Assembly: GCA_030522415.1 (NCBI GenBank)
Contig: CM060131.1
Coordinates: forward strand, 9,257,203 to 9,321,202
Reading direction: 5' to 3'
DNA from: Channallabes apus
Taxonomy: Eukaryota > Chordata > Actinopteri > Siluriformes > Clariidae
Length of the DNA: 64,000 bases
This document shows positions 1 to 64,000 of this stretch, in pieces (the stretch's first letter is position 1; each line of letters opens with the position of its first letter). The position numbers and the translations under genes were made by a program. The notes under the pieces were generated by a model. The model had not been told where the DNA came from, did no database searches, and saw only the letters and a program-made list of their open reading frames with translations.

Positions 1-1264
1 CAACGCAGCATCAGTATAACGACACTTCCCCAGGAATACAGAATTAAAAGTGGCAAAACGGGAAGACAGAGATGTCATTACCAAATTACTGTAGTTCTTA
101 GATTTGAAAAAAGGCAATTTAAGCCTGGGGCAGTCGACAATATATTTCCTTTCATAGCCCTATTAGCTTGTGTGAAAGGGCAAAACAGTGAGCATTGAGT
201 AAATGTTTTTTTTTTTTTTTTTTTACTTGACTGAGCCTCTTATATAAAATAAGAAAAGATTTAAAACCTAACTTTGTTAGGGTTTTATCCTAGTTTAGTT
301 TATTGTCTAATTAGGTTGATGTGTTTACCTACTGTATGTATGAAACATATACTGTAAGGTCTTGTGCATGTACTGTACAGTACAGTATATACTGTATAAA
401 CTGAGTGAATACAACTGATTTATCATGCAACAAAGCAAAAGGCAAAAAAGAAAGAAGAACCAACAGTACTGATAATATGAATTATTGGCTAGATTTGCGC
501 TTGTACAATATGAATCATGCAGGATGTTGTGGTGCTTTATATAACTTATGTTAGATTTAATGAATGCTATTTGTATTTTTTGTAAAATCTTTCATTGTTG
601 CTACAGTATTGTTGTTCTTTTGGCTGCTCCATTAGGGACTAGACCACAGTCTATCATCTGAGCCACATATTTGATTCTGGCACAGGTTTTTATACTGGAT
701 GTCCCAACTCTCCCGTTTCATCCACAACGCTCTGCAACCCTGAGAGTTGGGCTTTGCCTCGGAAGCAAACTCAGAATCTATATTTAACATCTATAGAATC
801 TATATTCAACAGTTTGACAGCATAATTTGCTAAATGCTTTTTTTTTTTTGGACAAATAATTCTGGCAAATAATTTTTCTCTTGCCCGTAATGTTGTCTAT
901 ACCAAAACTTTTAATTTGAAAAACACTTCATATCCTTATTTCAAAAGCTTTAAGCTTCCATGTTTTACCCAGACCAAAACATGGAATGGGCTCATAACAT
1001 AGCAAAATACAAAACTAGGCACATTGTTCACTTCTTTCTATCATGTGATCAGTTTTGTAAAACTGCTAGCTGAGAAAATAGTGACAGCTATTAGTGCACT
1101 AAATGTGTTAAATAGATTTTTGGAGAATGGTAAAGTCAAGAAAAAGGATGTTTACACTCTGCTACTGCCATTGCAGTTACCTCAGCTTTCAGGAACTACA
1201 GTACTTGTACTGTATGTACTGTATCATGTAATCAGTGAGAAACTGGTACAACTATTTGTATTGC
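1..1264. other. Unassigned A/T-rich DNA
   Basis: I see no coding region. It holds a poly-T run (about 206-225) and a dense cluster of TACTGTA/TACAGTA heptamers at 364-398 and 1198-1235. Short open frames around 1024-1264 have no recognisable domain. Confidence 0.6.
364..398. repeat. Chained TACTGTA/TACAGTA footprint cluster
   Basis: Four heptamers of the form TAC(T/A)GTA overlap or abut within about 30 bp, sharing TA ends. This is the pattern expected if a TA-targeting Tc1-type element repeatedly entered and left the same spot, each exit leaving five extra bases. A simple local repeat expansion is the alternative. Confidence 0.5.
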
Positions 1265-1895
1265 CATCTTCATACAGTAAGTCATCTGATGACTCTGTGG
1301 TTGTTGGATATATTCAATGAGGTGACACCTCAGAGTACCTGTCAGTGGTGGAGAATTTTATTATCTGGTGTGAATCTAATCATCTTCAATATCAAGAAAA
1401 CAACTGAACTAGTAGTGGACTTAAAAAAAATAATCAAAGACCCTTATCATTGCTCTCTCTGTCCAATGTGAGAGGTTGTATTCGGAGTACAAATGCCTGG
1501 GAGTCCAATTAGACAATAAACCAGATTGAGCAATAAACACAAAACTACTTCAAAAGAAAGACCAGAGCCGGCTGTAACCATGCGGATGTTCTATGACTCC
1601 ATGGTGGCTAATGTAAAGGTTTATGAGGTGGTCTGTGGGGGCTGTAGCATGAAGGTGGTGGACAAAAAAATAGATAATACTAGATAATAAATAGATAAGA
1701 CAAAAAAGGAGAATACTGTCTAAACTCCCTCAATCCTGCACAATCCTTCTCACAAACTACACAGTGTGCTGGCCAATCAAAGGAGTACATTCAGCCAGAG
1801 ACTCATCACAGCCAAGTGCTCTACTGAGCACCACATGAGATCCTCTCTTTTAGTGGCCATTAAAGTGTACAGCACTCTTCTCGGTAAAAACTGAA
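1265..1895 (+). pseudogene. Non-LTR retrotransposon reverse transcriptase, C-terminal remnant
   Basis: Fragments in all three forward frames resemble the region downstream of the catalytic YADD in fish LINE polymerases. They include a DSVVVGYI-like stretch, a W-C-x-x-N-H-L-Q motif near 1358-1400 (FIIWCESNHLQ), a MRMFYDSMVA motif near 1579-1610, and a C-terminal stretch resembling the 'H..FSERL..PRC..ER.R.SFLP' tail near 1790-1880. Frames are broken several times and no upstream endonuclease or RT core is visible, so it is a 5'-truncated, old copy. It is probably CR1/Rex-like, but the clade is uncertain. Confidence 0.55.
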
Positions 1896-3365: not shown

Positions 3366-3370
3366 TAATA

Positions 3371-4353
3371 TTAAATGTCCCTCTCATTCACACACATGTA
3401 TTCCACCTTGCTGTGGCTAACCTTCATTCCTCTGCTTTCCAGAGCATACCTCCACCTCTCCAAATTTTCCTCCACCTCTTCCCTGCTCTCACTACAAAGC
3501 ACAATGTCATCTGCAAACATCATAGTCCATGGTGACTCCTGTCTTACCTCATCTGTCATCCTGTCTATCACCAGAGCAAACCAAATGGGGCTTAGAGCCG
3601 ATCCTTGATGCAGACCCACCTCCACCTTGAACTCTTCTGTCACACCTACAGCACATCTTACCATTGTCTTAGCGCTCTCATACAGTACATGTCCTGCACC
3701 ACTCTAACATACTTCTCTGCCACTCCAGTCTTCCTCATACAATACCACAGCTCCTCTCTTGTACGCTTTCTCTAAATCTACAAAGACACAATGCAACTTT
3801 TTATTTCCTTCTCTGTACTTCTCCATCAGCATCCTCAAAGCAAATACTGCATCTGATGTACTCTAGGCATAAAACCATATTGCTGCTCACAAATGCTCAC
3901 CTCTGCCCTTAACCTAGCTTCCACTACTCTTTCCCACAGCTTCATTGTATGACTCATTAGCTTTATACTTCTGTAATTGCCACAGCTTTGCAACCCTTGT
4001 TCTTAAAAATCGGCACCAATACACTTCTCCTCCATTCCTCTGGAATCCTCTCACTCTCCAAAATCTTGTTAAACAAACAGGTCAAAAACTCTACTGCCAC
4101 CTCTCCTAAGCACTTCCATACCTCCACAGGTATGTCATCAGGACCAACAGCCTTTCCACTCTTCATCCTCTTCAACGCCCTTCTCACCTAACTTTTTACT
4201 AATATTTGCTACTTCCTCTTCCACAACAGTCACCTCTTCTACACTTTGTTCTCTTTCGTTTTCCTCATTCATCAGCTCCTCAAAGTACTCCTTCCATCTT
4301 CCCATCACCCTCCTGGCATCTGTCAGTACATTTCCATCTCTTTCTTTAATCAC
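3371..4353 (-). pseudogene. RTE reverse transcriptase domain (broken)
   Basis: Reading downward from 4353, the linker (RVMGRWKEYFEELMNEEN), the RT N-terminus (KMKSGKAVGPDDIPVEVWK, then IPEEWRRSVLVPIFKNKG) and the catalytic region (LHQGSALSP, then MMFADDIVL with the FADD aspartates) occur in order. They are split across frames near 4190, about 3965, and 3681-3687. The last break coincides with TACAGTA: the frame upstream reads VQDMY, and five bases later it continues as ESAKTMVRCAVGV in another frame. In the family this enzyme performs target-primed reverse transcription. This copy cannot encode it. Confidence 0.75.
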
Positions 4354-5490
4354 TCTAACATGCTACACATCCTTCCCATCTCTATCTCTCTGCCTCGCCA
4401 ACCTGTACAGATCCACCTCACCCTCTTTACTGTCCAGCCTAGCATACAAGTCCTCATATGCTCTTTGTTTGGATTTGCCAACTCTACCTTCATTTTACGC
4501 TGTATCTCCCTGTACTCCTGTCTACTATTTTCAGTCCTCTCAGTATCCCACTTCTTCTTAGCTAGCCTCTTTCCCTGTATACACTCCTGGACTTCCTCGT
4601 TCCACCACCAAGTCTCCTTGTCCACTTTCCCCTTACCTGATGATACACCAAGTACCCTTCTACCTGTCTCCCTGATCACATTGGCTATGGTTGTCCAGTT
4701 AACTGAAAGCAGCTCCTGACCAACCATAGCCTGTCTCAACTCCTCCCTAAAGACTACACAACATTCTTCCTTTTTCAACTTCCACCACTTTGTCCTCTGC
4801 TCTGCCTTTGTCCACATCAACTTCCTCACCACCAGGGTTATTTTACAGACCACCATTCTGTGTTGTCTGGCTACACTCTCCCCTACCAACACTTTGCAGT
4901 CACTAATCTCTTTCAGATTACAACGTCAACAAAAGATGTAGTCCACCCTACTGTATGTTCCTGCCTCTTCTGGAAGAAAGTATTTACTACTACCACCATC
5001 TGTCCTTCTACATTCCTGTCCTGAAGACCAAACCTGCCCATCACATTTTCATCACCTCTGTTCCCTTCCCCAACATGTCCATTGAAGTCTGCACCAATCA
5101 CCACTCTCTCACCTCTGGGGATGCTCTGCATCACTTCATTCTCTTCTAACTCACTTCCTACCTGTGGGGCATAGCCACTAATAACTTTGAACATCACCCC
5201 TTCAATTTCCAGCTTCAGACTCATCACCCTATCTGATACTCTCTTCACCTCTAGTAAACATTCCTTACAAACTCCTCTTTCAGAATAACTCATACTCCAT
5301 TTCTTTTCCTATTCACACCATCGTAAAACAATTTGAATCCTGATCCTAAGCTTCTGGCCTTGCTACCTTTCCACCTGGACTCCTGGACACACAGTATATC
5401 CACCTTCCTTCTCTGCATCATATCAACCAACTCTCTTTCCCTCCCTGTCACGGTCCCAACATTCAAAGTCCCTACTATCACTCCTAAACG
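4350..5490 (-). pseudogene. RTE apurinic-like endonuclease and linker (broken)
   Basis: The endonuclease N-terminus is recognisable from GTLNVGTVTGRERELVDMM and ILCVQESRWKGSKAR (the catalytic E lies in VQES), followed by SGYAPQVG and IGADFNGHVG, the DxN metal-site motif. Compared with usual RTE endonucleases, the segment between ELEE and EVMQS and the segment before VVNTFFQK are shortened in frame. The frame breaks at 5290, and again at 4949-4955 where TACTGTA occurs. Dropping those five bases joins EH-RVDYIFC to the downstream CNLKEI/GESVARQHRM frame. The linker to the RT runs to 4350. Confidence 0.75.
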
Positions 5491-5875
5491 CTTGCCTTTC
5501 CTTTTCTCTCTCTGCTTTCAAACACGCCTTCCTCCTCTCCTTCTTCGACCAACAGTAGCCCAAATTCCACCGGCACCCTGTAGGTCAACAGCACCAGTGG
5601 CCGTCGTTGTTAACCCGGGCCACGACCGATCCGGTATGGGAATTATGATTGCGAATCATTGATTTGGCAAATGTTTTTTACATCGGATGCCCTTCCTGAC
5701 ACAACCCCAGACTTGGGACTGGCACAAGAAAACACAACAAATACAAAACTAAACAAAACAACCCAAACGGGCGTTTTGGCGCCCTCTAGGGGTTAACCCT
5801 TACAGTACCCCCCTTCTAAAATGCTCCTCCGGAGCATCACTGGAGGCCCAGGACTACCACCCCAATGTTCTTCCT

Positions 5876-6431
5876 TTAGTCTCTTGATCCAGAGGCTGGG
5901 TGACGGTACTGGCGTTGGGACTTTCGTGCCGGGCTGAGGAGCCGGCATGACGAACTCTGCGGCGGACTGAGGAGCGGGCGCGACGATCTCTGCGCCTGGC
6001 TGAGGAGCGGGCGCGACGATCTCGGCGCCTGGCTGAAGATCTGTAGCTCCGCTTGATGAGCTCGGTGGCTGATGAGCCGGAGGGAAGCTTGACGGCGGCG
6101 GCGGAGCTGGTGCGAGGCTTGGCGGCTACTGAAGAGATAACGCGCCGTCATCGAAGCCTGGAGGAGGAGGAAGGACCATGCTCTCTAGGTCGCACGGCTG
6201 CAGCAGAGCGGATGTGAGGCTTGGCGGCGCTGATGGGAGGCTCGGCAGTGTCAGTGCTGGAGCTTCGCTCGGCGCCGGTACGTCGTCCTCAAAGCCGAGA
6301 GGCGGTGGAAGGACAATGCTCTCCTGCGTCAGAGCGGCAGTGAGGTTCGGCGGTGGCTGACGAGCTCGCTTGCTGTCCAGCGCCGGAGCGTCTTCCCCCG
6401 CGTTGAGCACCGGAGACGGAGGAGTGTGTTC
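5876..6431 (-). pseudogene. Proline-rich ORF of LTR element copy 1 (frameshifted)
   Basis: Reading downward from 6431, the frame encodes repeats ending in PPP.GFE/D (VLPPPLGFEDDVPAP, then MVLPPPPGFDDG). It shifts frame near 6130 and continues as repeats of an APAPQPGAEIV-like unit. It has no ATG of its own: the upstream open frame runs into the inserted SINE. The same PPPGFE-type repeat is encoded by the related element at 18874-19284, so the ORF is a conserved cargo of this family. Function is unknown, and I see no enzymatic motif. Confidence 0.55.
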
Positions 6432-6747
6432 AGGGTCGCAGGGGACCTGGAGCCTATCCCAGGAGACTTCGGGCACTAGGCGGGGTACATGGGGTCCAAT
6501 CTAGGCGGGGTACATAGGAGCCAATCCATCGCAGAGCACACACACATACACACACTACGGGCAATTTAGGAATGCCAATTAGCCTAACCTGCATATCTTT
6601 GGACTGTGGGAGGAAACCGGAGTACCCGGAGGAAACCCACCAAGCACGGGGAGAACATGCAAACTCCATGCACACAGAGACGGGAATCGACCCCTGGACC
6701 CTGGAGGTGCAAGGCGACAGTGCTAACCAATACACCACCGGCCGCCC
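6431..6747 (-). repeat. tRNA-derived SINE, family A, copy 1
   Basis: Starts GGGCGGC at 6747 and has an A-box-like TGGTGTATTGG and a B-box-like GGTCGATTCCC. The shared body follows (GTGCATGGAGTTTGCATG, CTCCGGTTTCCTCCCACAG, GGGATAGGCTCCAGG). It interrupts the LTR of the element at 5729-6918. Other copies lie at 7503, 22480, 23945 and 60145. Confidence 0.75.
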
Positions 6748-7000
6748 AGGCTATTTATACAAATCATAATTATCATCCTCGGTTCAGGTGAACTTCTACA
6801 TCACCTGACCGAGGTGCATCCTGGGAACTGAAGTTTAAACATAAAACACAACAAATACAAAACTAAACAAAACAACCCTAACGGGCATTTTGGCGCCCTC
6901 TAGGGGTTAACCCTTACAACTTACCCCAAATAAAAAATAAATAAATACAATTTCTCTTAGTGCAATTTTTCCTTGCAGTAAAATTCACTCTACTCTAGCT

Positions 7001-7022
7001 TTATTATTATTATTATTATTAT

Positions 7023-7055
<33 letters not shown>
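7001..7055. repeat. Compound (TTA)n(TAG)n microsatellite
   Basis: About eight ATT/TTA units change abruptly to about eleven TAG units. Confidence 0.9.

Positions 7056-7462: not shown

Positions 7463-7464
<2 letters not shown>

Positions 7465-7502
<38 letters not shown>
7465..7502. repeat. (AT)n microsatellite
   Basis: About 19 AT units directly before a SINE. A similar AT run follows the SINE at about 7883-7914, so the SINE may have inserted into an AT tract. Confidence 0.9.
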
Positions 7503-7504
<2 letters not shown>

Positions 7505-7879
7505 GCGGCACGGTGGTGTAGTGGTTAGCACCGTCGCCTTGCACCTCCAGGGTCTGGGTTCGATTCCCCGGCCAGGCTCGATTCCCGTCTCTGTGTGCAT
7601 GGAGTTTGCATGTTCTCCCCGTGCTTGGTGGGTTTCCTCCGGGTACTCCGGTTTCCTCCCACAGTCCAAAGATATGCAGGTTAGGCTAATTGGCGTTACC
7701 AAAATTGACCGTAGTGTGTGAATGAGTGTGTGAATGTGCGTATGAGTGTGTGCCCTGCGATGGATTGGCACCCTGTCCAGGGTGTACCCTGCCTTGTGCC
7801 CGAAGTCTCCTGGGATAGGCTCCAGGTCCCCCGCGACCCTGAATAGAGGATAAAGCGGTACAGAAAATGAATGAATGAA

Positions 7880-8804: not shown

Positions 8805-9215
8805 TGTGGCCATCCGAAGATCTCTGGTTCGGTTCCCGGGTGATGCTGTAACCTCTCACAGCCAGAGGCCTTGAGAGAGTTAAATTGAGAGAGATAATTA
8901 AATTAGTGCTCCCACATTAATCACACGGCTCTACGCCATTCGGGGTGTCCATGAGCTCGCGCACGCGGAGGGAGCGGATATCGCTGGCCTCCGAGTGTGT
9001 GACGCTGCCCCCAACGGTGCGTGAGTGAGCAGTTCGAAAAGAAGAGGTCGACTGGTGTCACGTGGTTTGGAGGAAACGCGTGAAACGGCTGAATGGTAGT
9101 ATTCACTAGTGACGGGCGGGAATTGGACGGGAGGGAATTGGACACGACTACATTGGGGAGAAAATCGGGGGAAAAGAATTGGACAGGACTAAATTAAAAA
9201 AACAAACAAACAAAC
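8805..9215 (+). repeat. tRNA-derived SINE, family B, 5'-truncated copy
   Basis: Shares a B-box region (GGTTCGGTTCCCGGGTGATGCTGT), CACAGCC(A/G)GAGGCC, GTGCTCCCACATTAAT and a 3' A-rich end with the full copy at 41643-42045 (there on the minus strand). The A-box end is lost. It ends in a (AAAC)n/A tract at about 9198-9230. Confidence 0.7.
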
Positions 9216-9230
9216 AAACAAAAAAAAAAC

Positions 9231-9795
9231 TTGCGTATGTAATGTCATAACATTTGTTTTTGTTCAAAGGTGGATTAATGTTTGGCCAAGATCTTTGATT
9301 GATGACAGGAGATTCAAAACACTCTATACTGTCTTCTACAGGATCCCAAATACTTTCAGTGGGCTTAAGGTCAGAACTCTGACTGTTGTGGCAAATATGT
9401 GAAACTGTGAAAATTATGTGTGAAAATGATTCCTCAAGCTCCCACATAACATTGCTAAGTCTAGACCTGACCAACTGAAGTAACCCCAAACCATAACATT
9501 GCCTCCAGTGTCTTGTACAATAGTCACTATGAATGATGGGTGCAATACTTCATGCAGTTCCCTTCTTACCCTGACACATCAATAATGCTGGAATATGGGT
9601 CAATCTGGATTCAACAAACTACCTATCTTTTTTCCATTGCTTCAAAGTCTGATCTTTATATCTTTAGTGATTAGATCTTTATGATCTTTAGTCTCACTAG
9701 CGAACTGGACCTCAATAAAATGGAAGTCTCAATAAGAAGTGGTTTTCTTATGGCCACACATCTGTTTAGTACCATATCTGTAGGTTCTTGTCACA
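9231..9795. repeat. Possible interspersed repeat, unclassified
   Basis: Phrases such as TTCAAAGTCTGATCTTTAT and GGTTTTCTTATGGCCACACA look like a widespread teleost non-autonomous DNA element, but this rests on memory alone. No terminal repeats were identified. Confidence 0.3.
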
Positions 9796-46069: not shown

Positions 46070-46800
46070 GACTTCTAGAGGACAATCACACCTACGTATG
46101 AACAACTGAAAAGAGACTCCACAAACACCTATAAGAAAAAGGCGATAGACTGTTATCACAACAGGTTGGCCTTTCTGGACTGTGTACTGCTGATTGGGAA
46201 GCAAAAAACAGAAGTCTACAGGAAAGCCACACAAAGATCAATACTTGCCATTTGACTCTCACCACCCATTGCAACATGAATTAAGTTTCATCAGGACAGT
46301 GAAGTCTGACGGCAGCGCTCAAGACATGCAGATATCCTAAGTGAGCCTTCAACAAAATAACTTCCATACCGAAAAGAACTATGACAGAGAGTGCTGAAAC
46401 CCAAACACAACAGAAGAAAAATCTTATCATCTCTTATGTGGCAGTAGTGTCAGAAAAGCTTAGAAGAATTTTTGTAAAGAACAACATACCAGCTGACTTC
46501 AAACCCACCAACACACTAAGAGAGAGACTCGTCCACACCAAAACATAAGAAAAGCAATATAATATATGAGGTTCAATGCAGTAAAGAGTGTTCAGAGCTC
46601 TACATTAGGGAGACAAAACATCCTTTCCATAAAAGGATGTATTCAACACTGGATGAAAATATACAAATTTAGTACACAGAGGATACTGTAGATGGTTTAA
46701 TAGAGGGGTGAAAGGAACCATCTACAGTATGTGCAGGTGGAAGATCCTCCTCTCAACAGAGGTGGAGGTCTCTTAACTGTTCAGGAGTGAGCTACAGTAA
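46070..46800 (+). pseudogene. Penelope-like element: RT end and GIY-YIG endonuclease (broken)
   Basis: Pieces in order: RT C-terminus (RLAFLDCVLLIGKQKTEVYRKAT, about 46160-46230), the segment before the nuclease (VVSEKLRRIFVKNNIPADFKPTNTLRERLVHT, about 46450-46540), and a GIY-YIG region with YEVQCSKECSELYIGETKHPFHKRM-like content (about 46555-46640). The C-terminus is EDRWFNRGVKGTIYVQVE / PPLNRGGGL (about 46680-46770). The last part is broken twice, at 46684-46690 (TACTGTA) and 46723-46729 (TACAGTA). Ignoring the five extra bases at each gives one continuous frame. The 5' half of the element is missing. Confidence 0.7.
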
Positions 46801-49673: not shown

Positions 49674-50878
49674 ATGGCGGAGTTCAGAGTTAGATGCCCG
49701 TGTGATCGCTTTCTTTCCGAAGGCGATATGCACATCCTCTGTTTTGAATGTTTGGGTGACAGTCATGCTCTCCTTGGACTTAAAAGAGAGTGTGAGCTGT
49801 GATACTCTCCCAATGAAAGTGTTATGCGCACGCCTCGCATTCTTTAGGGAACCACGAGCTGCGCTGCACTCCTGGGGATCTCAGGTTGATCTGACCGAGG
49901 CATGAGAGACGGAGTCCCTCTTTTCTCTCGCCCTCTCCCCAGATCACGTAATTTCTCCCTCCACTTCACGAGCGCACTTCGGTGCCTCTCGTGAGTGACT
50001 GGAAGAGATTCATTCTCCTGCTTCTTTGGAAATGGAAGTAGCTACCTCAGAACGATCCTCTAGAGATGATAAAGAGTATGACGAGTTGATTGAAGTTATA
50101 ACACGTCCAGTCGAACAACTACACATAGATTTGCCCACAGGAGCAAGCTCACCCTAAACAATCTAAATTAGATGACAGATTTCTGTCGGATGGCCAGGAG
50201 ATGGCGCCACAACGCCGCTCTCTCCCCTTTCTTGATGATCTCCACAACGAATTATCTCGTTCATGGAGGCATCCTTTTTCTTCCCGTATCTTTGTACCAT
50301 CGACTTCGTTTTATTCGAATATTGTTGATGCAACGGCACGAGGTTATGTGATGATGCCCCAGATGAGAAGACGCTCGCGGGCTATCTCGCTCCTGGGACA
50401 TCATCCTCACTAAAGAAGCCGACCCTTCCCTCCAAGCCGTGTAGAACTAGGGAAGGAGTTCCAAGCAGCAGGTCAAGCCGGCGCTTGATTGCACACCATG
50501 GTGGCTTTGCAGGCGTAACAGGCTGACCTGCTGATTGATCTGAGCACGAGCGGCAATATGAATCACGAAGCATACCTAGAATTACGCTGGGCTACTGATC
50601 TGTCCCTGCGTGCGACGAAACAGACAGTCCGTGCTATGGGCCGTTCTATGGCCTCCCTGGTGTTTGCAGAGAGGTACCTGTGGCTAAATCTAACATACAT
50701 TAAGGACAAAGATCGAGCATTCCTTCTCGATGCTCCTCTCTCACCCTCAGGCCTATTTGTCGATGCGGTTAATACCGTCGCCACCAGATTTAGAGAGGCC
50801 AGGCTTTATGAACAGGCTTTTGGGAAATTTCTCCCACGCCGTGCCCAGGAGTCGATGCCGTCGGCCACCCAACCTTGA
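49674..50878 (+). pseudogene. DIRS capsid-like ORF1 (frameshifted)
   Basis: ATG at 49674 begins MAEFRVRCPCDRFLSEGDMH followed by CFECLGDSHALLG, a Cys-rich start (CPC...CxxC) typical of DIRS ORF1. The frame shifts near 49800 and continues CDTLPMKVLCARLAFFRE. Further breaks follow. The C-terminal part (50558-50878) reads LELRWATDLSLRATKQTVRAMGRSMASLV and LWLNLTYIKDKDRAFLLDAPLSPSGLF, a helical capsid-like region. Confidence 0.65.
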
Positions 50879-51137
50879 CCTGATCTGCGTCTCGCCAGGT
50901 GAGAGGCGCAGAAGGAGAGCGTCAGTAGCCGCGCATCCCCCCGTAAGGACAGGGGTATGGCTCGGCACCCCCCTCAGGCCGCCCCCAAGAGCATAGATCG
51001 CCGCAGCGTCTTCTTTACGAAGAAGAATTCCTGAGAGCGGAACCCAGGACCGTGGGGTGTCCCCCCTGGGGAGGGGCATATAGTAGCATGCCCCCCCAGG
51101 CACCTCCAGGAGATTAGGAGACACGTTAGTTCTTCGG

Positions 51138-52696
51138 TTGGATCCTGCCACATTCCAGGACACCGAACCACTAACATCCCCCAGCCCAGTAGAAGTACTC
51201 GTACCTCTTTCGGAGAAGCTGGCAACGTGGAAGCTACTGCCAGGCATATCTCCCTGTGTTTTAAAGACTGTAGAGAAAGGATCCAGGATCCAGTTTACAT
51301 ATCGCCCTCCGCGTTTCAACAGCGTGGTCTCCACTTCCGTGATACTGGAAAGGGCGCATCTTCTGAGTTCCGAACTCCAGACACTACTGCATAAGGGAGC
51401 CATAGAACAGGTTCCTCATCCAAATATGGAGTCAGGCTACTACAGTCGGTACTTCCTGGTCCCCAAGAAGGACGGGGACTGCGTCCAATTTTGGATCTTC
51501 GCGGTTTGAAATGCTATCTCAAAAAATGCAGCTTCAAAATGTTGACCATAAAAACTATTGTCTCACAAATCCAACCACAGGATTGGTTTGTGACAATAGA
51601 TTTAAAGGACACATACTTTCACACAGAAATTTTGCCACAGCACAGGAAGTTCCTGAGGTTCGCTTTTGGGGGAAAAGCCTCCCAATTTCGGATCCTTCCA
51701 TTCGGTCTAGCCCTATCACCCCGCACATACACGAAATGCATGGATGCAGTTCTGGCTACCTTGAGACTCCAGGGCATCCACATTTTGAATTACATAGATG
51801 ACTGGCTAATCCTGGCCCAGTCTCAGCAGCTAGCACTTCGACACCGGGATGTCGTCCTAGCTCATCTTCATTCGCTGGGATTGAGACTCAACGCCACGAA
51901 AAGCGTTCTCTTTCCGGCGCAGAGGACTACGTACTTGGGTGTCAGGTGGAATTCGATCACTATGCAGGCACATTTGTCTCCTGCTCGTGTCGAATCCATA
52001 AACAACGCTCTGAAGGAAATAAGGCTAGACCAGGAAGTGACTGTACATCACTTACAAAAATGTTTAGGCCTCATGGCAGCTGCATCCACGGTGATACCTT
52101 TGGGTCTCTTGCACATGAGAGCTTTTCAGCTGTGGCTAAGAGCCAGGGGAGTTCATACAAGAACCAATCCCCGAAGGCAAATAAGAGTTATGCGCAAAGG
52201 ACTTCGTACCCTTTATATGTGGTTCAGACCCTGGTTCCTCACCTTGGGTCCCACTCTAGGTCCATCTTGTCGTCGCAAAATGCTAACGATAGACGCTTCC
52301 CTTACCGGCTGGGGCGCAGTCTTGGATGGCCGTCCAGCCCATCTTCTCGCATGGCACATCAATTGCCTCGAAATGATAGCTCTATTTTTAGCTCTACAGC
52401 ACTTCCTCCAGCAGCTGAGAGGCTACCATGTCCTAGTGCGGGTGGACAGCACATCGGTAGTCTCCTACATAAATCGCCAGGGCGGTCTGCATTCGCGCCG
52501 TTTGAACGAGCTAGCGCATCAGGTTCTGCTCTGGGCTCAGGACAAGTTCCTGTCCCTCAGGGCGATTCACATTCCAGGATACATGAATGTGGGAGCAGAC
52601 TTACTGTCCAGACAAGCTGTGAACCACTGGGAATGGAAACTCCACCCCGAAGTAGTCAGTGGCCCAATTTATGCCTCTATGCGTTCCCTCCAGTAG
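51138..52696 (+). pseudogene. DIRS reverse transcriptase and RNase H (one frameshift)
   Basis: N-terminal entry (LHKGAIEQVPHPNMESGYYSRYFLVPKKDG) lies in one frame to about 51490. A single-base-type shift then leads into a 401-residue open frame: LDLRGLK, DWFVTIDLKDTYFH, FRILPFGLALSPRTY and LNYIDDWLILAQ (catalytic DD). The RNase H follows with LTIDASLTGWGAVLDG, ALQHFLQQL and VDSTSVVSYINRQGG, ending ADLLSRQ. Apart from the shift near 51490, this domain is well preserved. Confidence 0.85.
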
Positions 52697-52891
52697 TCTT
52701 ACTCCCGGGAGTCCTGGCGAGGGTCCGTCAACACGGTTTGCACCTCTCATTGATAGCGCCCTGTTGGCCGGCCGGAGTATGGTTCTCGGATCTAATATCT
52801 CTCCTCGGCGGCTCACCTTGGATGATTCCAGTGAGGAGGGATCTCAGGCACAGGGGACAATATTTTATCCCCGGCACGAGCTCTGGAACAT

Positions 52892-53914
52892 TTGGCCCCT
52901 GAACGGGACCAATTAAGTCAAGCTGGCCTTTCAGCAGGCGTAATTGACACCATCCTAAGCGCTAGTGCTCCCTCCACTAGAAGAATTTATCCTTTCAAAT
53001 GGAAAGTATTCGAAAGTTGGTGCATGGCAAAGCAGGTGGACCCAGTTCACTGCCAAATTGTTTCAGTGCTGGAGTTCCTTCAAGAGAAATTGTCTTCGGG
53101 CTTGTGCCCTAGTACCCTCAGAATGTACGTGGCCACTATTTCAGCCTGCCACGTGCTGACTGAAGGGGTTACACCGGGAAATCACCTTTTAGTTGCCCAT
53201 TTTATTCGTTGAGCTAAACGGTTGAGGCCACTCACTAGAGCCACGGTCCCTTCGTGGGATTTATCTACCGTGCTCGAAGGTCTAATCGACACGCCTTTTG
53301 AACCACTAGAGTCAGCGCCTGACAAGCTTCTGACTCTCAAGATGGTTTTTCTTATGGCCATTACCTCTCTCTAGAGGATCGGAGATCTGCGTGCCTTGTC
53401 AGTCTCCCCATCTTGCCTGGACTTTGCCCCTGGGCTAGTCAAGGCCATTTTGCATCCTCACCCTAACAATCTGCCGAAAGTTCCTTTCTCAACCATGCAC
53501 CCTATTGTTCTTAAAGCCTTCTGTCCTCCGCCTTTTATAGATTCGGAGCAGGAGAAACTTCACTTACTGTGTCCAGTACGTGCTCTTCAGACCTACGTCC
53601 ACCGCACCAGCCAGTGGCGTAAGTCAGAGCAACTTTCTATGTGTGATGCTATGGAGGCCGCAACCGGGGGGGCGGCTGCCACTACACAGACATTGTCACA
53701 CTCGGTGAGTGATGCTATTGCCCTCTCCTATGAGGTGCGTGGACTCACTTCGCCTCTAGGAGTCAGGGCTCATTCGACCAGAGGGGTCGCCTCATCTATT
53801 GCTCTTGCAAGAGGTACTCCCCTGCAACAAGTGTGTGACGCGGCAGGATGGTCCTTTCCGCACACATTTGTAAGATTTAATAGTCTGGATGTCCATGCCA
53901 CTCCGGGCTCATGA
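52892..53914 (+). pseudogene. DIRS tyrosine recombinase (two stops, catalytic Tyr position altered)
   Basis: One continuous frame with in-frame TGA at 53210 and TAG at 53372. N-terminal SAM-like domain: STRRIYPFKWKVFESWC and STLRMYVATISACH. Catalytic half: RIGDLRALSVSP (first Arg), AHSTRGVASSIAL (HxxR), CDAAGWSFPHTF, then FVRFNS where the other copy in this window (about 15990) has FVRFYS. If the Y is the nucleophile, this copy lacks it. In the family the enzyme integrates a circular DNA intermediate by site-specific recombination. Confidence 0.8.
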
Positions 53915-53984
53915 GTCCTTGAGTCAGCTTCCCAGACATAGGTCTGAGACTTTCCGGCTTTGTGCGCACATGCTCTGGAGGTCC

Positions 53985-54160
53985 AGACACTTGCAGTGCG
54001 GCGGCGTTGGTATTCTTGTTCCCATAGTGTTTTCACGCAGCATCGAGTGAAGCCTTTGAAAGGGAATGTGATGCTGCGTCCTAATGCCGCACTGCCACGT
54101 GACCAGACGTCCGTTCAGACAAATTAATCTGAGGAATGTCACCGGCTCACTGTTATTTAT
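53985..54160 (+). repeat. DIRS internal/terminal repeat region
   Basis: GGTCCAGACACTTGCAGTGCGGCGGCGTTGGTATTC followed by TTTTCACGCAGCATC. The latter recurs at the outer terminus (about 59310) and, inverted, at 15845-15870 in the other copy. Confidence 0.6.
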
Positions 54161-54887: not shown

Positions 54888-57800
54888 TTATGTGTATGCC
54901 AGATTAAAAAGATGCGTCTTGAGTCTACTTTTGAACTGAGAAACCGTGTCTGCTCCCCGTACACTGTCTGGAAGGCTATTCCAAAGCTTTGGAGCTAAAT
55001 ATGAAAAAGCCCTACCCCCTTTTGTAGATTTTGAAATTCTGGGAACTACCAGAAGTCCGGAGCTTTGTGATCTTAAGGCGCGTGGTGGATTGTAGCGTAT
55101 CAGAAGACTGGTTAGGTATGTGGGAGCTAAACCATTTAAGGCCTTGTATGTAAGTAATACTATTTTGTAATTTATTCTAAACTGAACAGGTAGCCAGTGC
55201 AGGGATGATAATATTGGGGTTATATGATCATATTTTCTGGATCTAGTGAGAACCCTGGCAGCTGGATTTTGGATTAACTGAAGCTTGTTTATTGAGGATG
55301 CAGGACAACCACCTAGTAATGTATTACAATAGTCCAGTCTGGAGGTCATGAATGCATGAACTAGCTTTTCTGCATCAGATACGGATAAGATGTTCCTAAG
55401 TTTAGCAATATTTCGAAGATGGAAAAAGGCTGTTTTTGTGATATTTGAAATGTGATTTTCAAAAGACAAGTTACTGTCTAATATTACGCCCAGGTCTTTT
55501 ACTGCTGAGCTTGTAGTAACAGTACATCCTTCTAAGCGCAGACTGAATTGTGAAAGCTGTTGTGTGCTGGTTTTTGGGCCAATAAGTAATATCTCTGTCT
55601 TATCTGAATTTAATAAAAGAAAGTTATTGGTCATCCAATCTTTTATGTCCTGGACACACTCAGTTAATCTAGACAACTTAGGTATTTCGTCTGGTTTAGT
55701 TGAGATATATAATTGGGTATCATCAGCATAACAATGGAAACTAATCCCATGTCTTCTTATGATGTTACCCAAGGGAAGCATGTATATTGAGAACAACAGA
55801 GGTCCTAAAACTGACCCTTGTGGGACCCCATATTTCACTGGCATTACACCAGACGGTTCTCCATTTAGATCTACAAAATGGTAGCGATCAGACAGGTAAG
55901 ATCTAAACCATTTTAATGCCTGTCCCTGAATACCTATATAATTTTGTAAGCGATCTATGAGAATATTATGATCTATAGTGTCGAATGCAGCACTAAGATC
56001 GAGCAGGACTAGCAATGAGATGCAGCCTTGGTCTGAAGCTAAAAACAAGTCGTTTGTAATCTTAACTAGTGCAGTTTCTGTGCTATGATGGGGCCTTAAA
56101 CCTGACTGAAATTCTTCAAGGATGTTGTTATCCTGCAAGAATGTGCAAATTTGAGCTGATACTACTTTTTCTAGTATTTTTGATATGAACGGAAGGTTTG
56201 AAATCGGTCTGTAATTTGTTATTTCATTCGCGTCCAAATTAGATTTTTTAAGAAGCGGCTTAATAACTGCTAACTTGAAAGGTTTAGGGACGTGACCTAG
56301 ATGTAATGAAGAATTAATAATGTTTAGAAGTGGTTCTCCAACCGTAAGCATCACTTCTTTTAAAAATCTGGTTGGGATTGGGTCTAACAGGCACGTTGTT
56401 GATTTAGCCGAGGTGATGAGTTTATACAGCTCTTCCTGTCCTATACTGTACCTGTAAAGCACTGAAAATCTAAATGTGAAGCTATAGGCTGAACTGGATC
56501 GTGAGATACTATTAGAGGCTGAACCTCCATTATTTTCTTCCTGATATTATTGATTTTTTCATTAAAGAAGTCCATAAAGTCTTCACTTCTAAACTGTGAT
56601 GGGATACTCTCTGCAGGCATCTTAGGTTTTGTTAGGCGAGCCAGTGTACTAAATAAGAACCTGGGATTGTTTTGGTTTCTTGCTATCAGTTGGCCAAGAT
56701 GCTCAGTCCTAGCAGTTTTTAGAGCCTGTCTATAGTTGCACATACTGTCTTTATACGCAATTCGAAAAACTTCTAATTTAGTTTTCCTCCATTTTCGCTC
56801 GAGGTTACGGGTTGCTCTCTTTAGCGCGCGAGTATGACTGTTGTACCACGGTGCAAATGTTTTATCTCTGACTTTTTTTAATCTGATGGGAGCAACAGTG
56901 TCTAATGTACTGGTAAGAATAGTGCCCATGCTGCTAGTCACTTCATCTAGATCATCTGCATTTAGGGGTCTAATAAGAAATTGGGACAGATCCGGCAGAT
57001 TACTTGTGAATCTGTCTTTAGTAGTGGGATTCATATTTCTAACAGATTGATAACGTGGGGAGACACAGCTAATCTGTTCTACGGGTAGAGTATACTGTAT
57101 GTCAGGAGGTGATGTCACTTTGAGGTATGATCTCTATATTAGAGACATCTATACCATGGGATATAATTAAATCTAGCGTATGATTAAAGCGGTGAGTTGC
57201 TCCAATTATATTTTGCTTAACCCCAAAGGAATTTAGTAAATCCATAAATGTGAGTGCTAAAGCGTCGTTAGCATCATCTACATGAATGTTAAAGTCTCCT
57301 ACTATCAACACTTTGTCAGAGTTAACCAATAGGTCTGATAGCAGATGTCCAAATTCTTTAAGAAAATCGCCATATGGCCCCGGGGGTCTGTACACGGTGG
57401 CCAGGGTAAAATATAGCAAGGGTTTATTACGTATTTCATTTAGTGCAACATTAATGATAAGCACTTCAAATGAATTAAACCTGGGCCTTATTTTCTGGGT
57501 AACAGTGAGTACATCATTGTAGATAGTGGCGACACCACCACCGCGACCAATTAGATGGGGCTCGTGCTTATAGAAATATCCTGACGGAGTAGCCTCATTC
57601 AGACCAAAATATTCATTTGGTTTATGCCAGGTTTCGGTGAGACAGAGTGCATCAAGGCAATAATCTGAGATAATTTCATTAACAATAAGTGCTTTAGGCG
57701 CAAGAGATCTAATGTTGAGTAGTCCAAACTTTAGAGGTGGATTTTGACTACTTATTTTGCCTTTTTCTGGTTTTATGGTTATCAGATTGTTTCGGGCAAA

Positions 57801-57941
57801 TTTAACAAATTTATTCTTTTTTCTCACTATTCGGGGAACAGACACAGTTTCTATAGGACAAGCTATGTGTGTGCGTCTATCACTACGGTGAGTTGTGATG
57901 TGGCTAATATGTTTGGAATCTACAGTATGACTTACCGCCAG
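54888..57941 (-). pseudogene. L2 ORF2: endonuclease and reverse transcriptase (few breaks)
   Basis: The frame is open from right after the ORF1 TGA (57944-57942) with no ATG. Endonuclease: FGLLNIRSLAPKA, LCLTETWH (catalytic E), YRPPGPYGD, LIVGDFNIHVDD. The frame breaks at 57118-57102, where the catalytic SDH block should be. A TACTGTA (57093-57099) and a small deletion both lie there. The next frame runs 57118-56450. The break at 56444-56450 (TACTGTA) joins, without its five bases, as [14 protein letters not shown]. The final frame (56462-54888) holds [49 protein letters not shown] (catalytic) and LHWLPVQFR to the end, complete. Confidence 0.85.
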
Positions 57942-58865
57942 TCAGATGGTTCGTAGTGTCCTGGAGATGTTGTCAGAGAGGACCGCTGCTCCAGCTCTGC
58001 TAGGGTGTAGGCCATCGGTGTGATAGAGCCTAGGACGCTCCCAGAAAACATTCCAGTTATCAACAAAGCGTAATTTCTGTTGTTGACACCAAGATTGTAA
58101 CCATTCATTAAAGGCAAATAATCTACTGAACTTCTCGATTCCTCGCTGAAATGTGGGAAGCGGTCCAGATACGATGATCCTTGTCATGGGTGATGTGCTG
58201 CGGACCTTCTCGACCAGGCTCCTGAAGTCCTTCTTTAGGATCTCCGTCTGCCTCAGCCTGGTGTCGTTCGTGCCGGCATGAAGAATCACAGCTCCAATGT
58301 TCCTCCTCAAGGCAGCAGGCACCTGTGCAGCAACATCAAGAACACGTGCACCAGGTAAACAGCGTGTGTGCACCTTACCTTTAGCCGTGGTAGCACGCAC
58401 GTGACGAACGATGGAGTCTCCGATGACCAGGACGTCGTGTGCTGTCTCACGGAGAGGAGCGAAGCGGTTTCGGGTCGAGATGTCGAAGACGGGTGGTGGC
58501 GGAGGGGGAGAGGTCCTCGCCCGGGGCTTGGCGTGCTTCTTCCGCTGCTGCTGTATCCAGGGTCCGTGGTATCCCGGCGCCGGGGTGTAGGAAAACTGGG
58601 CGGGCTGCGTCCTTGGTGTGTTGGACCTGGGCAGAGAAACACGCGGGGTTGAGGTTGTCGGAGAGATTGTGTCACGCCGAGAATTTACCTGGGACACGTG
58701 AGCGTCGGTCCGCGTCGATTCCAGCGTGGCTTTCCGCTGCTGTAGCCGGGCCAGCTTCACCTGTAGCTCACGGATCAGCTTCTCCACGGCCTCCAGCTCC
58801 AAATCCACCGAGTGCAGCTCCAATGGCTCCTCACCTGCACTCAGAGGCAGAATCACAACCGACAT
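57942..58865 (-). CDS. L2 ORF1: coiled-coil and SGNH-esterase protein (intact)
   Basis: Uninterrupted, about 307 residues from the second in-frame ATG (MSVVILPLSAG). An upstream start codon at 58910 gives 322, but this ATG matches family practice better. Residues about 20-70 form a heptad-like coiled coil (LELEAVEKLIRELQVKLARLQ), followed by a basic, proline-rich linker. The esterase comprises DVLVIGDSIVRH (Ser block), AVILHAGTNDTRL (Gly-x-Asn-Asp block) and YHTDGLHPSRAGA (Asp-His block), all residues retained. Copy A carries a broken homologue. In CR1/L2 elements ORF1 binds RNA; the esterase role is unresolved. It is the only fully open element protein in the window. Confidence 0.8.
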   Translation of the reverse strand: MSVVILPLSAGEEPLELHSVDLELEAVEKLIRELQVKLARLQQRKATLESTRTDAHVSQVNSRRDTISPTTSTPRVSLPRSNTPRTQPAQFSYTPAPGYHGPWIQQQRKKHAKPRARTSPPPPPPVFDISTRNRFAPLRETAHDVLVIGDSIVRHVRATTAKGKVHTRCLPGARVLDVAAQVPAALRRNIGAVILHAGTNDTRLRQTEILKKDFRSLVEKVRSTSPMTRIIVSGPLPTFQRGIEKFSRLFAFNEWLQSWCQQQKLRFVDNWNVFWERPRLYHTDGLHPSRAGAAVLSDNISRTLRTI

Positions 58866-59174
58866 GGTGTCTAAACACGGAAAATAATCGATGTGAAGAA
58901 GCGAAAACAAACTTTACAAACAAACGTGATAGCCGGGCTAACGGGCTAGCGATGCTAATGCTAATTAGCGATGCTAATGCCGGCTAAAAGCGGTGTGCTG
59001 CAAAACATACGTTTACGTACGTACGTAAACGTACGTATAACACGCGTTTCGAGTAAATATATTATAAGATACTTATCCGTTTTATGTACACTCTTCGTAA
59101 GGGGACGAAAAAGTTTAAAAGTTGGTCAGTATGGAAAAACTGCTCGGAAAAAAGCAGCGTCTCAGCGTCCTCGT
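58866..59174 (-). promoter_or_regulatory. L2 copy B 5' UTR with palindrome
   Basis: CpG-containing leader with a 14-bp direct repeat AGCGATGCTAATGC (58947 and 58966) and a perfect 26-bp palindrome at 59008-59033. L2 elements need an internal promoter, and this leader is the likely site. That is inference only. Confidence 0.4.
59008..59033. other. 26-bp perfect palindrome
   Basis: Centre between 59020 and 59021. The half-site TACGTTTACGTAC is repeated inverted and built from ACGT cores. Confidence 0.85.
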
Positions 59175-60440: not shown

Positions 60441-61417
60441 GAGGCTTATGTAATATGGTCAAAGTGACAGAAATTTATGGACCGATTAATAAATGTTTTA
60501 TTAAAAGCTCAGTGCAAAAATGAAAATGTCAAACTGGCAGGGGTCAATACACAACTGCCATGAAATTACTGCGTATAAACAAGTATCGCAGAAACAGTCC
60601 CAAATCAGAAAACATGATTACATGGCTTGGGCTCTTACTGAGAGATTGACAAGTGTTTGAATTGACTGAGAATAAACCATTGTTTAGACTGGCCTAGTTT
60701 TATATGTGAAGGTAAGGTAATGTATTGTTTTTTGTGATTTTAATCCTGTCTGAATCTTTTGTATTTTCAACAGACTGTTTCTTATATTTTGTAAAATTAA
60801 CACAATAAATAGCCCATGGCAATATGTAGATACTCTGATTGACATGTTTATTAAAAAAAAAAAAGTTTATTTCATGCTCTTGAAAAAGTAGCTTTCTGCT
60901 TTTGTTTTTTGCTAAAAATAAAGTTACTCCAGAAAGTGAGAGCAAAATAAAACCAAGTATAAAGATTAAAAGATAAAGAAGGAATATGATATAGAACAGA
61001 TTTAAACAGACTTACCAGAGAATAGACACTTCTGGTGTGTTTTACTGTTGTTACTGCGTTCCCGGGTAGAGGAGCAGTTTTAATTTGGGTGCTTGAGGCT
61101 ATGGGTCACTGACTGGAGGGTTTAAGTTTTAGAACTGCAGGGTTGCCACCATGTAGTGCTGGTCCCAATCCTGTTGGGAAAATTGTGAGTCGAGCAGGAA
61201 GGGGGATCAGGCATAAAACCTACTGTATGCTAGACCTTGGATCAAACAGTTCAATGTGGTGACCCCAAGGATAAAAGGCAAAAGCCTTAGTTTCCAGTAT
61301 TGCTATAGTATTCCATTCCCAGTGTTACTGTATAGTATAGTACAGTATACTGAGCATTGCTATGTTATGGACATGTGACCTTCAATGTCCTAAAACAAGT
61401 GATATTAACATTTATAG
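60441..61417. other. Unassigned DNA
   Basis: No recognised feature apart from TAC(A/T)GTA heptamers near 61224 and 61326-61347. Confidence 0.45.
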
Positions 61418-61912
61418 TGGGGCAAAAAAGTATTTAGTCAGCCACCAATTGTTGTCCCATTTAAAAAGATGAGAGAGGTCTGTAATTTTCATCATGGGTA
61501 TACCTCAACTATGAGGGACAAAATAAGAAAATCCAGAAAATCACACTGTAGGATTTTTTTATTATTTATTTGGTAAAGTCCTCTGTAAAATAAGTATTTG
61601 GTCTCCTACAAACAAGCAAGATTTCTGGCTCTCACAGACCTGTAACTTCTTCTTTAAGAGGCTCCTCTGTCCTCCTTGTTTCCTGTATTAATGGCATTGC
61701 CAACAAAAGGTAATACTTATTTTCCACCATAATTTGCAAATAAATTCTTTAAAAATCCTACAGTGTGATTTTCTGGATTTTTTCCCCCTTATTTTGTCTC
61801 TCATAGTTGAGGTATACCTACAGTATGATGAAAATTACAGACCTCTCTCATCTTTACAAATGGGAGAACTTGCACAGTTGGTGGCTGACTAAATACTTTT
61901 GTGCCCCAGTGT
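61418..61912. mobile_element. Long-TIR hairpin element (Tc1/mariner-type, non-autonomous)
   Basis: Two arms of about 180 bp are inverted repeats: AGTGGGGCAAAAAAGTATTTAGTCAGCCACCAA at the left and its inverted counterpart ending at about 61912 (GTGCCCC.GTGTA). Both contain AAAGATGAGAGAGGTCTGTAATTTTCATCAT and CAGAAAATCACACTGTAGGATTTTT. The right arm carries a CAGTA insertion (61821-61825) that the left arm lacks. TA is adjacent to the termini. No transposase is encoded. Confidence 0.75.
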
Positions 61913-64000
61913 ACATGAGAACATGTTATGTATGTACACTAGTAAGCCTACTGTGCGTATATGTACATTGTGAAGACACTTCCATTACTGCGTTTTGTAG
62001 ACATGCCAATTGCCACAAGTGATTACTACAGGCATCCCCTTACAATATTACTGTACTTAACAGATAAATGTCTGGGAGCCTTATCCAATGCATGAGCTAC
62101 TGTACACGTCCAAGTGAGAGAGCCCCCTGGCAAACAGGAGGTACATTGCAGTGATTTTTTGTGACAGCAAAAAGAAAATATCTATTTCCCAGTCACTGTC
62201 CATTCAAAATTGGATTCAATGTCATATTGACATTTGCAATATGATTTTTTAGACCTTACAGGCTATGAGCTGTTGCTGTGGATTTAAACAATAAGTTAGA
62301 CATGGATGTTATTAAAATATAGCATCAATATAGATTCAAAATCTTTTTCAGAACTTTACTGGAAAATCCCCACTGCTTCTTTCACCTTGTCTATGGACAC
62401 AAAGGAGACACTTTGTATTAAAGTATTACAAGTATTCAAATATTACTTGAACCAGCTTATTCGGCCTATACACTTCACTGTAGTAGTGTCAGGGACCAGT
62501 TTTTGTTAAACAAAAATGTAAATACAATGCACAGCAGCTCATTCAACTAAAGAAGACGCAATAAGTACTTTTAAATTGAAATAAAAATGTAAAGAGAAAA
62601 AAGGAGAAAAATAGTATTTTAGGAATTTTCAGAATAACCAAATAAAGAATAAATGTGCCAGATACATTATTCTCTCCTTATTAGTTTAGCTTTATGAGTT
62701 TACCTATATAAAGACACTTTTGCTTGTTTATCATGGATTATTATTTATATCAAAGACTTTTTTCTTAATAGATACTTTATCATATCCATTGTCTTGGAAT
62801 TAAATCAGTCTGGGTTTGGCCTTATCTTCCTCATTGTGCACCTTCTCACTAAACTCCCCAGCATTAATCAGACCTATGCTGTTAACACATTTAATTAAAC
62901 GTAACTATGTAGAAGTGAATTAATCAGCCGATTTGACCGTGTTCCGACTGAGTGTTGTTAAAGAGGGCTACTGAAAAGGTTGTGTGAAATTACACACATG
63001 CATAATCTCAGAGACAAATGAGGTGAAGCGGCTTTAAATGTCTTACAGGAGCCCAACCGGCGATAACAGCTGACCTTTACACTTCACATGCACAAAGCTG
63101 TTGGCAAAAAGAGGGAGCGGGGGAGAGAGAGAGAGAGAGAGAGAGAGGGAAGAGAGAGGACAGTCAGTATAAATAAATCAAATGAGCAGGAATACTTAGA
63201 AAAAATACTTAGTTTAAAGTAAATCATAGGAAAATGTAATAAACAAGTTAAACATGAAATGTCCAGCCCTGGTTTGGCACTACATCTAGGTTGTCTCCTG
63301 GCTTATGCTCTGAGCTACAGTAACTGGGATAATCTTCAGTTTGCCCAAACAACAGACTAATGCGGCAGTTCTTAAATAGATAATTATTACAGTAAAACAG
63401 ATAATTGCTTCATGAATTTAGAGTTCAGAGAATTCAGACAGTCAATTCTATGTTTTTTTTTTTTTTTTGGTAAAGTAAGACCTATGAGGATTGGGTCCAC
63501 TGCGAGTCTTCCTTTCAAGAACTAAGGGGCAGCAAGACTACACCTTAATCAATGTGATTGAGCAGGAGAGAGAGAGAGGCTACATCTGGAACCTGGGGTA
63601 AAATGTGATTAAATACCACCTTCTTAATACTGCAGTATGAGTGCTGGAGATGTTCGAACTCTTCTCTTCAGATGCTTATCTCAAGGTGAAGAAGGAAGAC
63701 TCTTCTCAGTTTCATGTCTTCCTGCATTATTCATGTAAATCAGCATGTTTTATGTGTGAGTTATGATCTCATGCAGTGTACCAAGCAGATGAGTGCCAAG
63801 GGCAATAGCGATTCATAAAATGAAATCTGAATGAGAGAGATGACCTATGCTTTTTCTGCAATAGGCGCTAATATCATATATAGGTCAACTGGATGTGCTG
63901 TATCATATAGTATCATACATTATTATATGTTCACTTAGAGGCAGCACTCTTCTACTGTATGTCAATGGACAATTATAGTCATCAAATAACACAAAGAAAA
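61913..64000. other. Unassigned, largely unique DNA
   Basis: No gene. A (GA)n microsatellite at 63119-63150 and a poly-T at 63452-63468. 62790-63110 is non-repetitive, with several TTAATTA/ATTAATCA motifs and could be a conserved noncoding block, but nothing in the sequence proves it. Confidence 0.4.
63119..63150. repeat. (GA)n microsatellite
   Basis: About 13 GA units within a G/A-rich stretch. Confidence 0.85.

Follow-up and report, generated by a model that had tools for sequence, protein, structure and literature searches.

RESULTS

TAC(A/T)GTA is in excess across the window

Is the heptamer TAC(A/T)GTA in this DNA an original word of the sequence, or is it the scar of transposons that have left? 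We counted it exactly in the window, that is, the whole 64,000-base stretch analyzed here, and found 95 copies, near-equal in the two orientations (49 TACAGTA and 46 TACTGTA). Dinucleotide and trinucleotide composition predict 9.2 and 12.0 copies, respectively, and with the motif masked from the background the expectation is 8.2, 8.8, or 9.7 (di-, tri-, or tetranucleotide). The excess noted in the original prediction from a hand count (about 90 to 95 motifs against about 13 expected) is confirmed, with exact figures of 95 against 8 to 12. Just three heptamers, AAAAAAA, ACACACA, and CACACAC, outnumber the motif when the strands are merged, and the runner-up TANNNTA pair, TAAATTA/TAATTTA, totals 36. 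Even under a fifth-order Markov model fitted on the same unmasked sequence, the motif had the top z score (95 versus 62; z = 4.1).

The bases around the motif vary from site to site, so the copies do not represent one repeat family. From word counts and flanks, we regard most of the 95 motifs (positions 1 to 64000, without strand) as probable excision footprints. Three of them have TAs in common (371, 376, and 381, spanning 371 to 387, without strand), and their 5-bp spacing suggests a footprint within a footprint; a second TA-sharing pair lies at 11158 and 11163.

One-mismatch neighbors of the motif are also in excess (245 versus 178 to 201 expected), with a ratio of 1.29, about 2.8 standard deviations above shuffled control words (0.983; standard deviation, 0.111). 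Because these neighbors had no transition bias, decay offers no means of dating the motifs, and a pure-decay reading of about 7 to 11% mean divergence is a rough upper bound only. We also noted a possible second scar type, TACATTA/TAATGTA, with 27 copies against 13 to 15 expected.

Most judged motifs are 5-base insertions

For comparison with repeat copies, 94 of the 95 motifs were usable, the remaining one being too close to the window end, and other TANNNTA words served as controls. Ten motifs had a spanning repeat copy inside the window. At 7 of these the copy fit better without five bases, compared to 2 of 31 control words (Fisher P = 1.6e-4); with two simple-repeat sites removed, the proportion was 5 of 8. 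Gap lengths in 23 repeat pairs pointed the same way, since 5 of 8 five-base gaps fell at the motif but 0 of 46 gaps of 1 to 2 bases did. Insertion of 5 bp after a TA, which had been proposed for several loci and for which alignment of repeats had been suggested, held at six motifs for which a repeat copy exists (16168, 33305, 33333, 34001, 56444, and 61819).

Two LINE copies served as test beds for frame breaks, copy A at 30506 to 34564 on the plus strand and copy B at 54888 to 58913 on the minus strand. Frame breaks in these copies coincide with the motif, and the frame of the other copy is kept if five bases are skipped. In ORF2 of copy A, footprints on the plus strand were seen at 33305 to 33311 and, in a divergent stretch, at 33333 to 33339, each with a frame break and a 5-base gap. 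A third plus-strand footprint in this ORF, at 34001 to 34007, breaks the frame and aligns gap-free with copy B once five bases are omitted. ORF2 of copy B has a footprint at 56444 to 56450 on the minus strand, again with both frame break and 5-base gap. In ORF1 of copy A, the motif at 31086 to 31092 (plus strand) is a probable footprint, its frame break being located only to within about 45 bases. A search of copy B against viral contigs, a collection not meant for fish genomes, gave no relative, and eight reverse transcriptases at 26 to 30% identity in prokaryote genomes say nothing on fish.

Outside the two LINE copies, +5-type frame breaks also occur at 16168 and 3681. The first, in a DIRS-like remnant (16168 to 16174, minus strand), is a footprint by both frame and copy, the copy near 53.7 kb being 5 bases shorter. 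The second (3681 to 3687, minus strand) lies in a LINE reverse transcriptase fragment, where joining the frames extends the Pfam RVT_1 match back from profile position 110 to 85. The motif at 4949 to 4955 (minus strand), in a LINE fragment shared with 3681, is a probable footprint from its frame alone, as Pfam gave for its flanks only a weak match under the cutoff, both with and without the join. In a Tc1 remnant, the footprint at 61819 to 61825 (plus strand) faces an opposite inverted-repeat arm lacking exactly 5 bases. At 18818 to 18824 (plus strand), a probable footprint, the copy near 19.7 kb fits better when five bases are omitted, but the net difference is 7 bases rather than 5, and we graded this site less clean.

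In total, 10 of 13 judged motifs are insertions (7 clean and 3 less clean) and 3 are not. The motif at 5801 to 5807 (plus strand) has a repeat copy of equal length at 19.3 to 19.4 kb, and those at 38449 to 38455 (minus strand) and 38641 are native words in an uninterrupted Ty3-type ORF. Three native words in 13 would fit a chance background of roughly 1 in 10, and roughly one-tenth of the 95 motifs would be chance words, three of them identified here.

Motif flanks carry a Tc1-type half-site bias

Bases flanking the motif are biased toward A-Y half-sites, as in Tc1-type insertion. A-Y-N half-sites were found at 56 of 172 motif sides (33%) against a mean of 27.0 (16%), a count reached in 0 of 20,000 draws, while other TANNNTA words were background-like (98 of 598). 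TACATTA/TAATGTA was at 22% (12 of 54), compared to the 16% background and the 33% at the motif. Enrichment of the full AYATATRT 8-mer was not significant (2 of 86 versus 40 of 4280; P = 0.2), and palindromy between the two sides of the motif showed no excess.

CAG-ended Tc1-like remnants lie in the window

CAG-terminated elements beside TA had been reported at 20736 and 28786, and both ends are present. The first belongs to a Tc1-like remnant with CAGCTCTGG ends (20736 to 21278, without strand), with TA|CAGCTCTGG at 20736. The second is a lone Tc1-like end on the minus strand (28762 to 28786), with 2 mismatches in 25 to an end word; it is a right end, reads GACTGGAACTG|TA, and terminates at 28786. 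We also found a Tc1-like remnant with (C/T)AGTGGGGC ends (61415 to 61911, without strand) and a possible CAG-ended element with 5 mismatches in 24 between its ends (45947 to 46889, without strand). We take these CAG-ended remnants to resemble fish Tc1 families, and one repeat in the window presumably resembles catfish repeats.

No intact transposase was found in the window, only degraded stretches: a Tc1 transposase at 43994 to 44317 on the plus strand (E = 2e-8 to a probe) and a mariner-like transposase at 26111 to 26434. Pfam gave nothing for the ORF at 9148 to 9549, a suspected Tc1 piece, and an Rfam scan gave no match. Searches of two repeat words against viral contigs and of a Tc1 remnant against phages, in collections not meant for fish genomes, were negative.

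DISCUSSION

Repeat copies against controls, the gap-length spectrum, reading frames, and target bias agree on the excision-footprint interpretation for this window, and the CAG-ended Tc1 remnants count in its favor too. Counting against it are the three motifs that are not insertions, the full AYATATRT 8-mer and the palindromy, neither of them significantly raised, the failure to find an intact transposase, the one-mismatch neighbors free of transition bias, and the 7-base difference at 18818. We are confident that Tc1-family (Sleeping Beauty-like) DNA transposons with CAG-starting ends left about 85 of the 95 motifs as excision footprints that were then inherited. Going by known biochemistry, an element would enter at a TA and duplicate it. 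The transposase would then excise it by cuts staggered by 3 bases, so that CAG, or CTG where the other end is the source, stays behind between two TAs, and end joining would close the break, presumably in cells that gave rise to the germ line. The net gain would be 5 bp, with CAGTA or CTGTA following a TA, and renewed insertion could follow, sometimes into a TA created by an earlier footprint. This footprint chemistry is textbook Sleeping Beauty, and the remarkable part is the density, roughly one scar per 750 letters.

Real scars may stem chiefly from a different TA-inserting, CAG-ended family, such as a pogo/Tigger or mariner branch, rather than from Sleeping Beauty-like Tc1 elements; we consider this unlikely. 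The recognizable CAG-ended remnants look like fish Tc1 families, and the excess is confined to the 3-base CAG/CTG class. The degraded mariner-like stretch does lend this reading something, as do the 0- to 4-bp footprints that Passer, a pogo element, leaves (PMC9976928).

Much less probable is that TAC(A/T)GTA was present without insertion, as a word with a function, for example, a regulatory site, or as one favored by mutation. The three native motifs fit this, and miR-101 and miR-144 begin with a match to the motif in a primer table (PMC6694524). However, repeat copies at six motifs lack exactly five bases, the half-site bias is Tc1-like, and motifs disrupt retrotransposon frames, a place in which a regulatory site of the host would not be expected.

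We see hardly any chance that the motifs belong to mini-elements with inverted repeats starting CAGTA, in which case TA plus CAGTA would mark the terminus of an element instead of a scar. Several Rhodnius MITEs start with TACAGTA (PMC4678618), but here the flanks differ at every motif, an inverted-repeat scan had no paired CAGTA-type ends, and copies differ by five bases rather than by a whole element. An assembly or polishing artifact is just as improbable, since it would not account for C(A/T)GTA being added exclusively behind a TA, with Tc1-like flanks and both orientations equal. Precise elimination between TAs of the ciliate type was rejected as well, since it leaves a single TA without a scar.

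Sleeping Beauty and Frog Prince offer the closest parallel to the footprints proposed here. A table in PMC3878927 gives their footprint as C(A/T)GTA and a passage of PMC3432063 as TAC(A/T)GTA, the identical seven bases and +5 at TA; those scars come from laboratory mobilization, whereas the ones here arose naturally, seem to be inherited, and lie densely. Zebrafish ZB is likewise a fish Tc1/mariner element with a Sleeping Beauty-like target preference and 0- to 3-bp footprints, but these were measured in cultured cells, and the available part of the report holds no genome-wide scar count (PMC7913693). Caenorhabditis elegans Tc1 inserts at TA with the consensus AYATATRT and leaves somatic end-joining scars; its usual scar, however, is +4, and the worm germ line mostly restores the element via homologous recombination (PMC13148408 and PMC9635669). 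The corresponding +4 footprint, TACATGTA, did not figure in the listed top eight TA-N4-TA words by enrichment. Tc1 elements are also the most abundant repeat type in catfish genomes rich in Tc1/mariner, but the main texts of these papers lack the word "excision," and a lone "footprints" refers to the elements themselves (PMC5953449 and PMC5829208, the latter word in PMC5953449). None of the literature matches listed described naturally occurring Tc1 footprints on a genome-wide scale, a weak negative, as subscription journals lay mostly outside the search.

With about 85 five-base scars, departures of jumping genes would be a major source of small mutations in this window. Genome-wide, inherited Tc1 footprints may reach a density of about 1.3 per kb (over 1 million per Gb), outnumber surviving elements by at least 10:1, and account for about half of the small lesions that break frames in old retrotransposons, although we lean slightly against this extension. 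If it is true, the germ line would often end-join excision breaks instead of restoring the element, and every footprint would by the way create a stretch that matches miR-101/miR-144 exactly over their first seven bases. A surviving transposon copy marks a last landing place, while a footprint is the record of a departure. If footprints are this dense genome-wide, past jumps could be counted per surviving copy and put in order from how old the interrupted repeats are, target choice could be measured without surviving insertions, and the germ-line repair of transposon breaks would be revealed. Ordinary indel models would then be missing a leading, sequence-specific source of +5 frameshifts.

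Abundance of the TAC(A/T)GTA motif

Occurrences of TACAGTA or TACTGTA in the window had been put by hand count at 90 to 95, with about 13 expected. The exact total proved to be 95 (49 + 46). These motifs start at 87, 330, 350, 371, 376, 381, 390, 602, 1197, 1208, 1217, 1273, 2259, 2366, 3293, 3681, 4949, 5801, 8677, 11158, 11163, 11214, 12579, 13136, 13432, 13713, 14266, 16168, 17763, 18818, 20245, 20318, 20365, 20416, 20441, 21143, 21717, 22359, 22451, 22577, 22597, 22882, 23287, 24711, 25730, 26009, 26066, 26748, 26915, 27351, 28524, 28697, 28879, 29821, 30067, 30322, 31086, 33305, 33333, 34001, 34768, 34806, 36369, 36724, 36954, 37272, 38449, 38641, 40106, 41185, 45895, 46684, 46723, 46793, 47315, 47455, 47783, 48312, 48341, 48385, 48605, 56444, 57093, 57921, 59614, 59791, 61221, 61326, 61341, 61819, 62049, 62098, 63316, 63388, and 63953. 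The GC content of the window is 41%. The expected count is 9.2 under a dinucleotide and 12.0 under a trinucleotide model; masking the motif gives 8.2, 8.8, and 9.7 for di-, tri-, and tetranucleotides. With strands merged, only AAAAAAA, ACACACA, and CACACAC outnumber it among 7-mers, and the second-ranking TANNNTA pair totals 36. TACATTA/TAATGTA, possibly a second scar type, is mildly enriched (27 places versus 13 to 15 expected).

Motifs as five-base insertions in repeat copies

Eight motifs lie within repeats having another copy, as judged by comparing the window with itself. Repeat copies inside the window served as the reference. Each motif and its 70-base flanks, both in full and with the five bases left out, were used as a query on the remaining window sequence (94 of 95 motifs; 63953 is too near the window end). 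A spanning copy was present for 10. Seven scored higher without the five bases (12579, 13432, 16168, 18818, 29821, 34001, and 61819) and three in full form (5801, 45895, and 48341), the last two being each other's match with the motif present in both. As control words we used 306 other TANNNTA words. Spanning copies existed for 31, with the shorter form better in 2, the full form in 26, and a tie in 3 (7/10 versus 2/31; Fisher P = 1.6e-4). We graded 12579 and 29821, which match simple-repeat stretches, as weak, together with 13432, whose matching copy is 14 bases short; dropping the two simple-repeat sites leaves 5 of 8 motifs better without the five bases.

Realignment of 23 repeat pairs (6,979 columns) yielded eight gaps exactly 5 bases long, five of which fell at motifs (56444, 33333, 33305, 16168, and 61819). 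None of the 1-base (29) or 2-base (17) gaps did. The gap at 18818 is longer, at 7 bases. At 34001, a 9-base gap is partly balanced by a 4-base gap in the opposite copy, for a net difference of 5, and the alignment becomes gap-free once the five bases are left out.

Reading frames

What we take to be one LINE family is present in the window as two copies, each with a Pfam reverse transcriptase match: copy A (30506-34564, +) and copy B (54888-58913, -). Copy B also carries an ORF1 (57942-58913, -), unbroken over 323 codons, in which Pfam recognizes a GDSL-lipase-like domain (E = 9.5e-18). We placed frame breaks by protein comparison of the copies and frame display. Frame shifts occur at 33305, 33333, and 34001 in copy A and at 56444 in copy B, and skipping five bases restores the frame of the other copy. 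The same skip keeps frame at 31086, where similarity is weak on one side and locates the break only to within about 45 bases; at 16168 in a presumably DIRS-like remnant, relative to a copy near 53.7 kb; and at 3681 in a separate LINE fragment, where the skip lets the RVT_1 match extend back from profile position 110 to 85. Frame evidence alone indicates the same for 4949, where a Pfam search of the site gave no support for the join. Since five extra bases would disrupt the frame of the unbroken Ty3-type ORF at 37865-38992, 38449 and 38641 within it are native words. Position 57921 lies between ORFs, and 37272 is without a repeat copy in the window.

Read by eye from the alignments, ORF2 of the two LINE copies contains about nine frame-changing lesions. 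Five are at motifs (33305, 33333, 34001, 56444, and 57093), with the motif's share assumed at 57093, which coincides with another length change in copy B; about four are elsewhere (33122-33133, within 33345-33370, 34085-34088, and one near 57093).

Altogether, 13 motifs could be judged. Ten are insertions, seven clean (16168, 33305, 33333, 34001, 56444, 61819, and 3681) and three less so (18818, 31086, and 4949), and three are not (5801, 38449, and 38641); a chance background of 8 to 12 in 95 predicts one to two non-insertions per 13.

Target-site preference

Flanks were analyzed at 86 isolated motifs, omitting nine clustered ones. A at -3 from the TA had a frequency of 46% versus 32% at other TAs, and Y at -2 one of 65% versus 51%; AA or TT at -2,-1 was avoided (7.6% versus 23%). 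A-Y-N half-sites numbered 56/172 (mean, 27.0; maximum, 49 in 20,000 draws), and control words were background-like (98/598). The Tc1 insertion consensus is given as AYATATRT (PMC9635669). The full 8-mer, too rare in the window for significance, occurred at 2/86 motifs versus 40/4280 (P = 0.2), and palindromy between motif flanks showed no excess.

Candidate source elements and timing

Of the CAG ends noted earlier at 20736 and 28786, the former belongs to a Tc1-like remnant with both ends present (20736-21278) and the latter to a lone end (28762-28786). A second two-ended remnant spans 61415-61911, and 45947-46889 is a possible CAG-ended element. A transposase probe sequence matched degraded transposase stretches at 43994-44317 (E = 2e-8), 9465-9572 (E = 1e-4), and 26111-26434 (E = 2e-4), and found no intact transposase in the window. 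About 85 footprints face about seven recognizable remnants, a rough ratio of about 12:1. Elsewhere, a SINE-like repeat forms a long inverted pair (6429-6764 and 7487-7843; arms 81 to 97% complementary) with about 700 bp of different sequence between its arms; it presumably resembles repeats from catfish and relatives. The LINE, DIRS-like, and Ty3-type elements, together with the Tc1 ends, suggest teleost DNA.

Neighboring motifs lay within 60 bp of each other 21 times versus 11.5 expected for random TA sites with 2-kb blocks kept (P = 0.0015), and three motif pairs have a TA in common; at 500 bp there was no excess over random TA sites. The short-range clustering could come from very local re-insertion or locally favored target DNA. 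Motifs per kb were 0.99 in LINE copy A, 0.75 in copy B, and 1.77 in the rest of the window, and the DIRS-like copy at 50500-54120 has none in 153 TAs. These differences would weakly fit scars building up with time since each segment arrived, the weakness being that a motif-free copy has a chance of about 4% at the window's per-TA rate, by our arithmetic. The DIRS-like copy is perhaps younger than most excisions.

Probable excision footprints and their possible consequences

Taken together, repeat copies, reading frames, target bias, and CAG-ended remnants agree with the original prediction of healed Tc1-type excision, which is very probably right for this window. Tc1/mariner excision is described as leaving 2- to 3-base 3' overhangs, which joining keeps between the TAs (PMC3878927), and Sleeping Beauty sites as being repaired mainly by NHEJ, with CAG remaining (PMC8151067). 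In the C. elegans germline, the account is instead of element restoration by homologous recombination (PMC13148408). If the scars were made by end joining, we infer that many excisions escaped element restoration in this individual's ancestors. The footprint itself is of a known kind; the novelty, for this window, may lie in the scar load. TACTGTA is an exact complement of bases 1 to 7 of both miR-101 and miR-144 in the sequences printed in PMC6694524, giving an exact seed match, and scars within 3' UTRs could create targets for these microRNAs.
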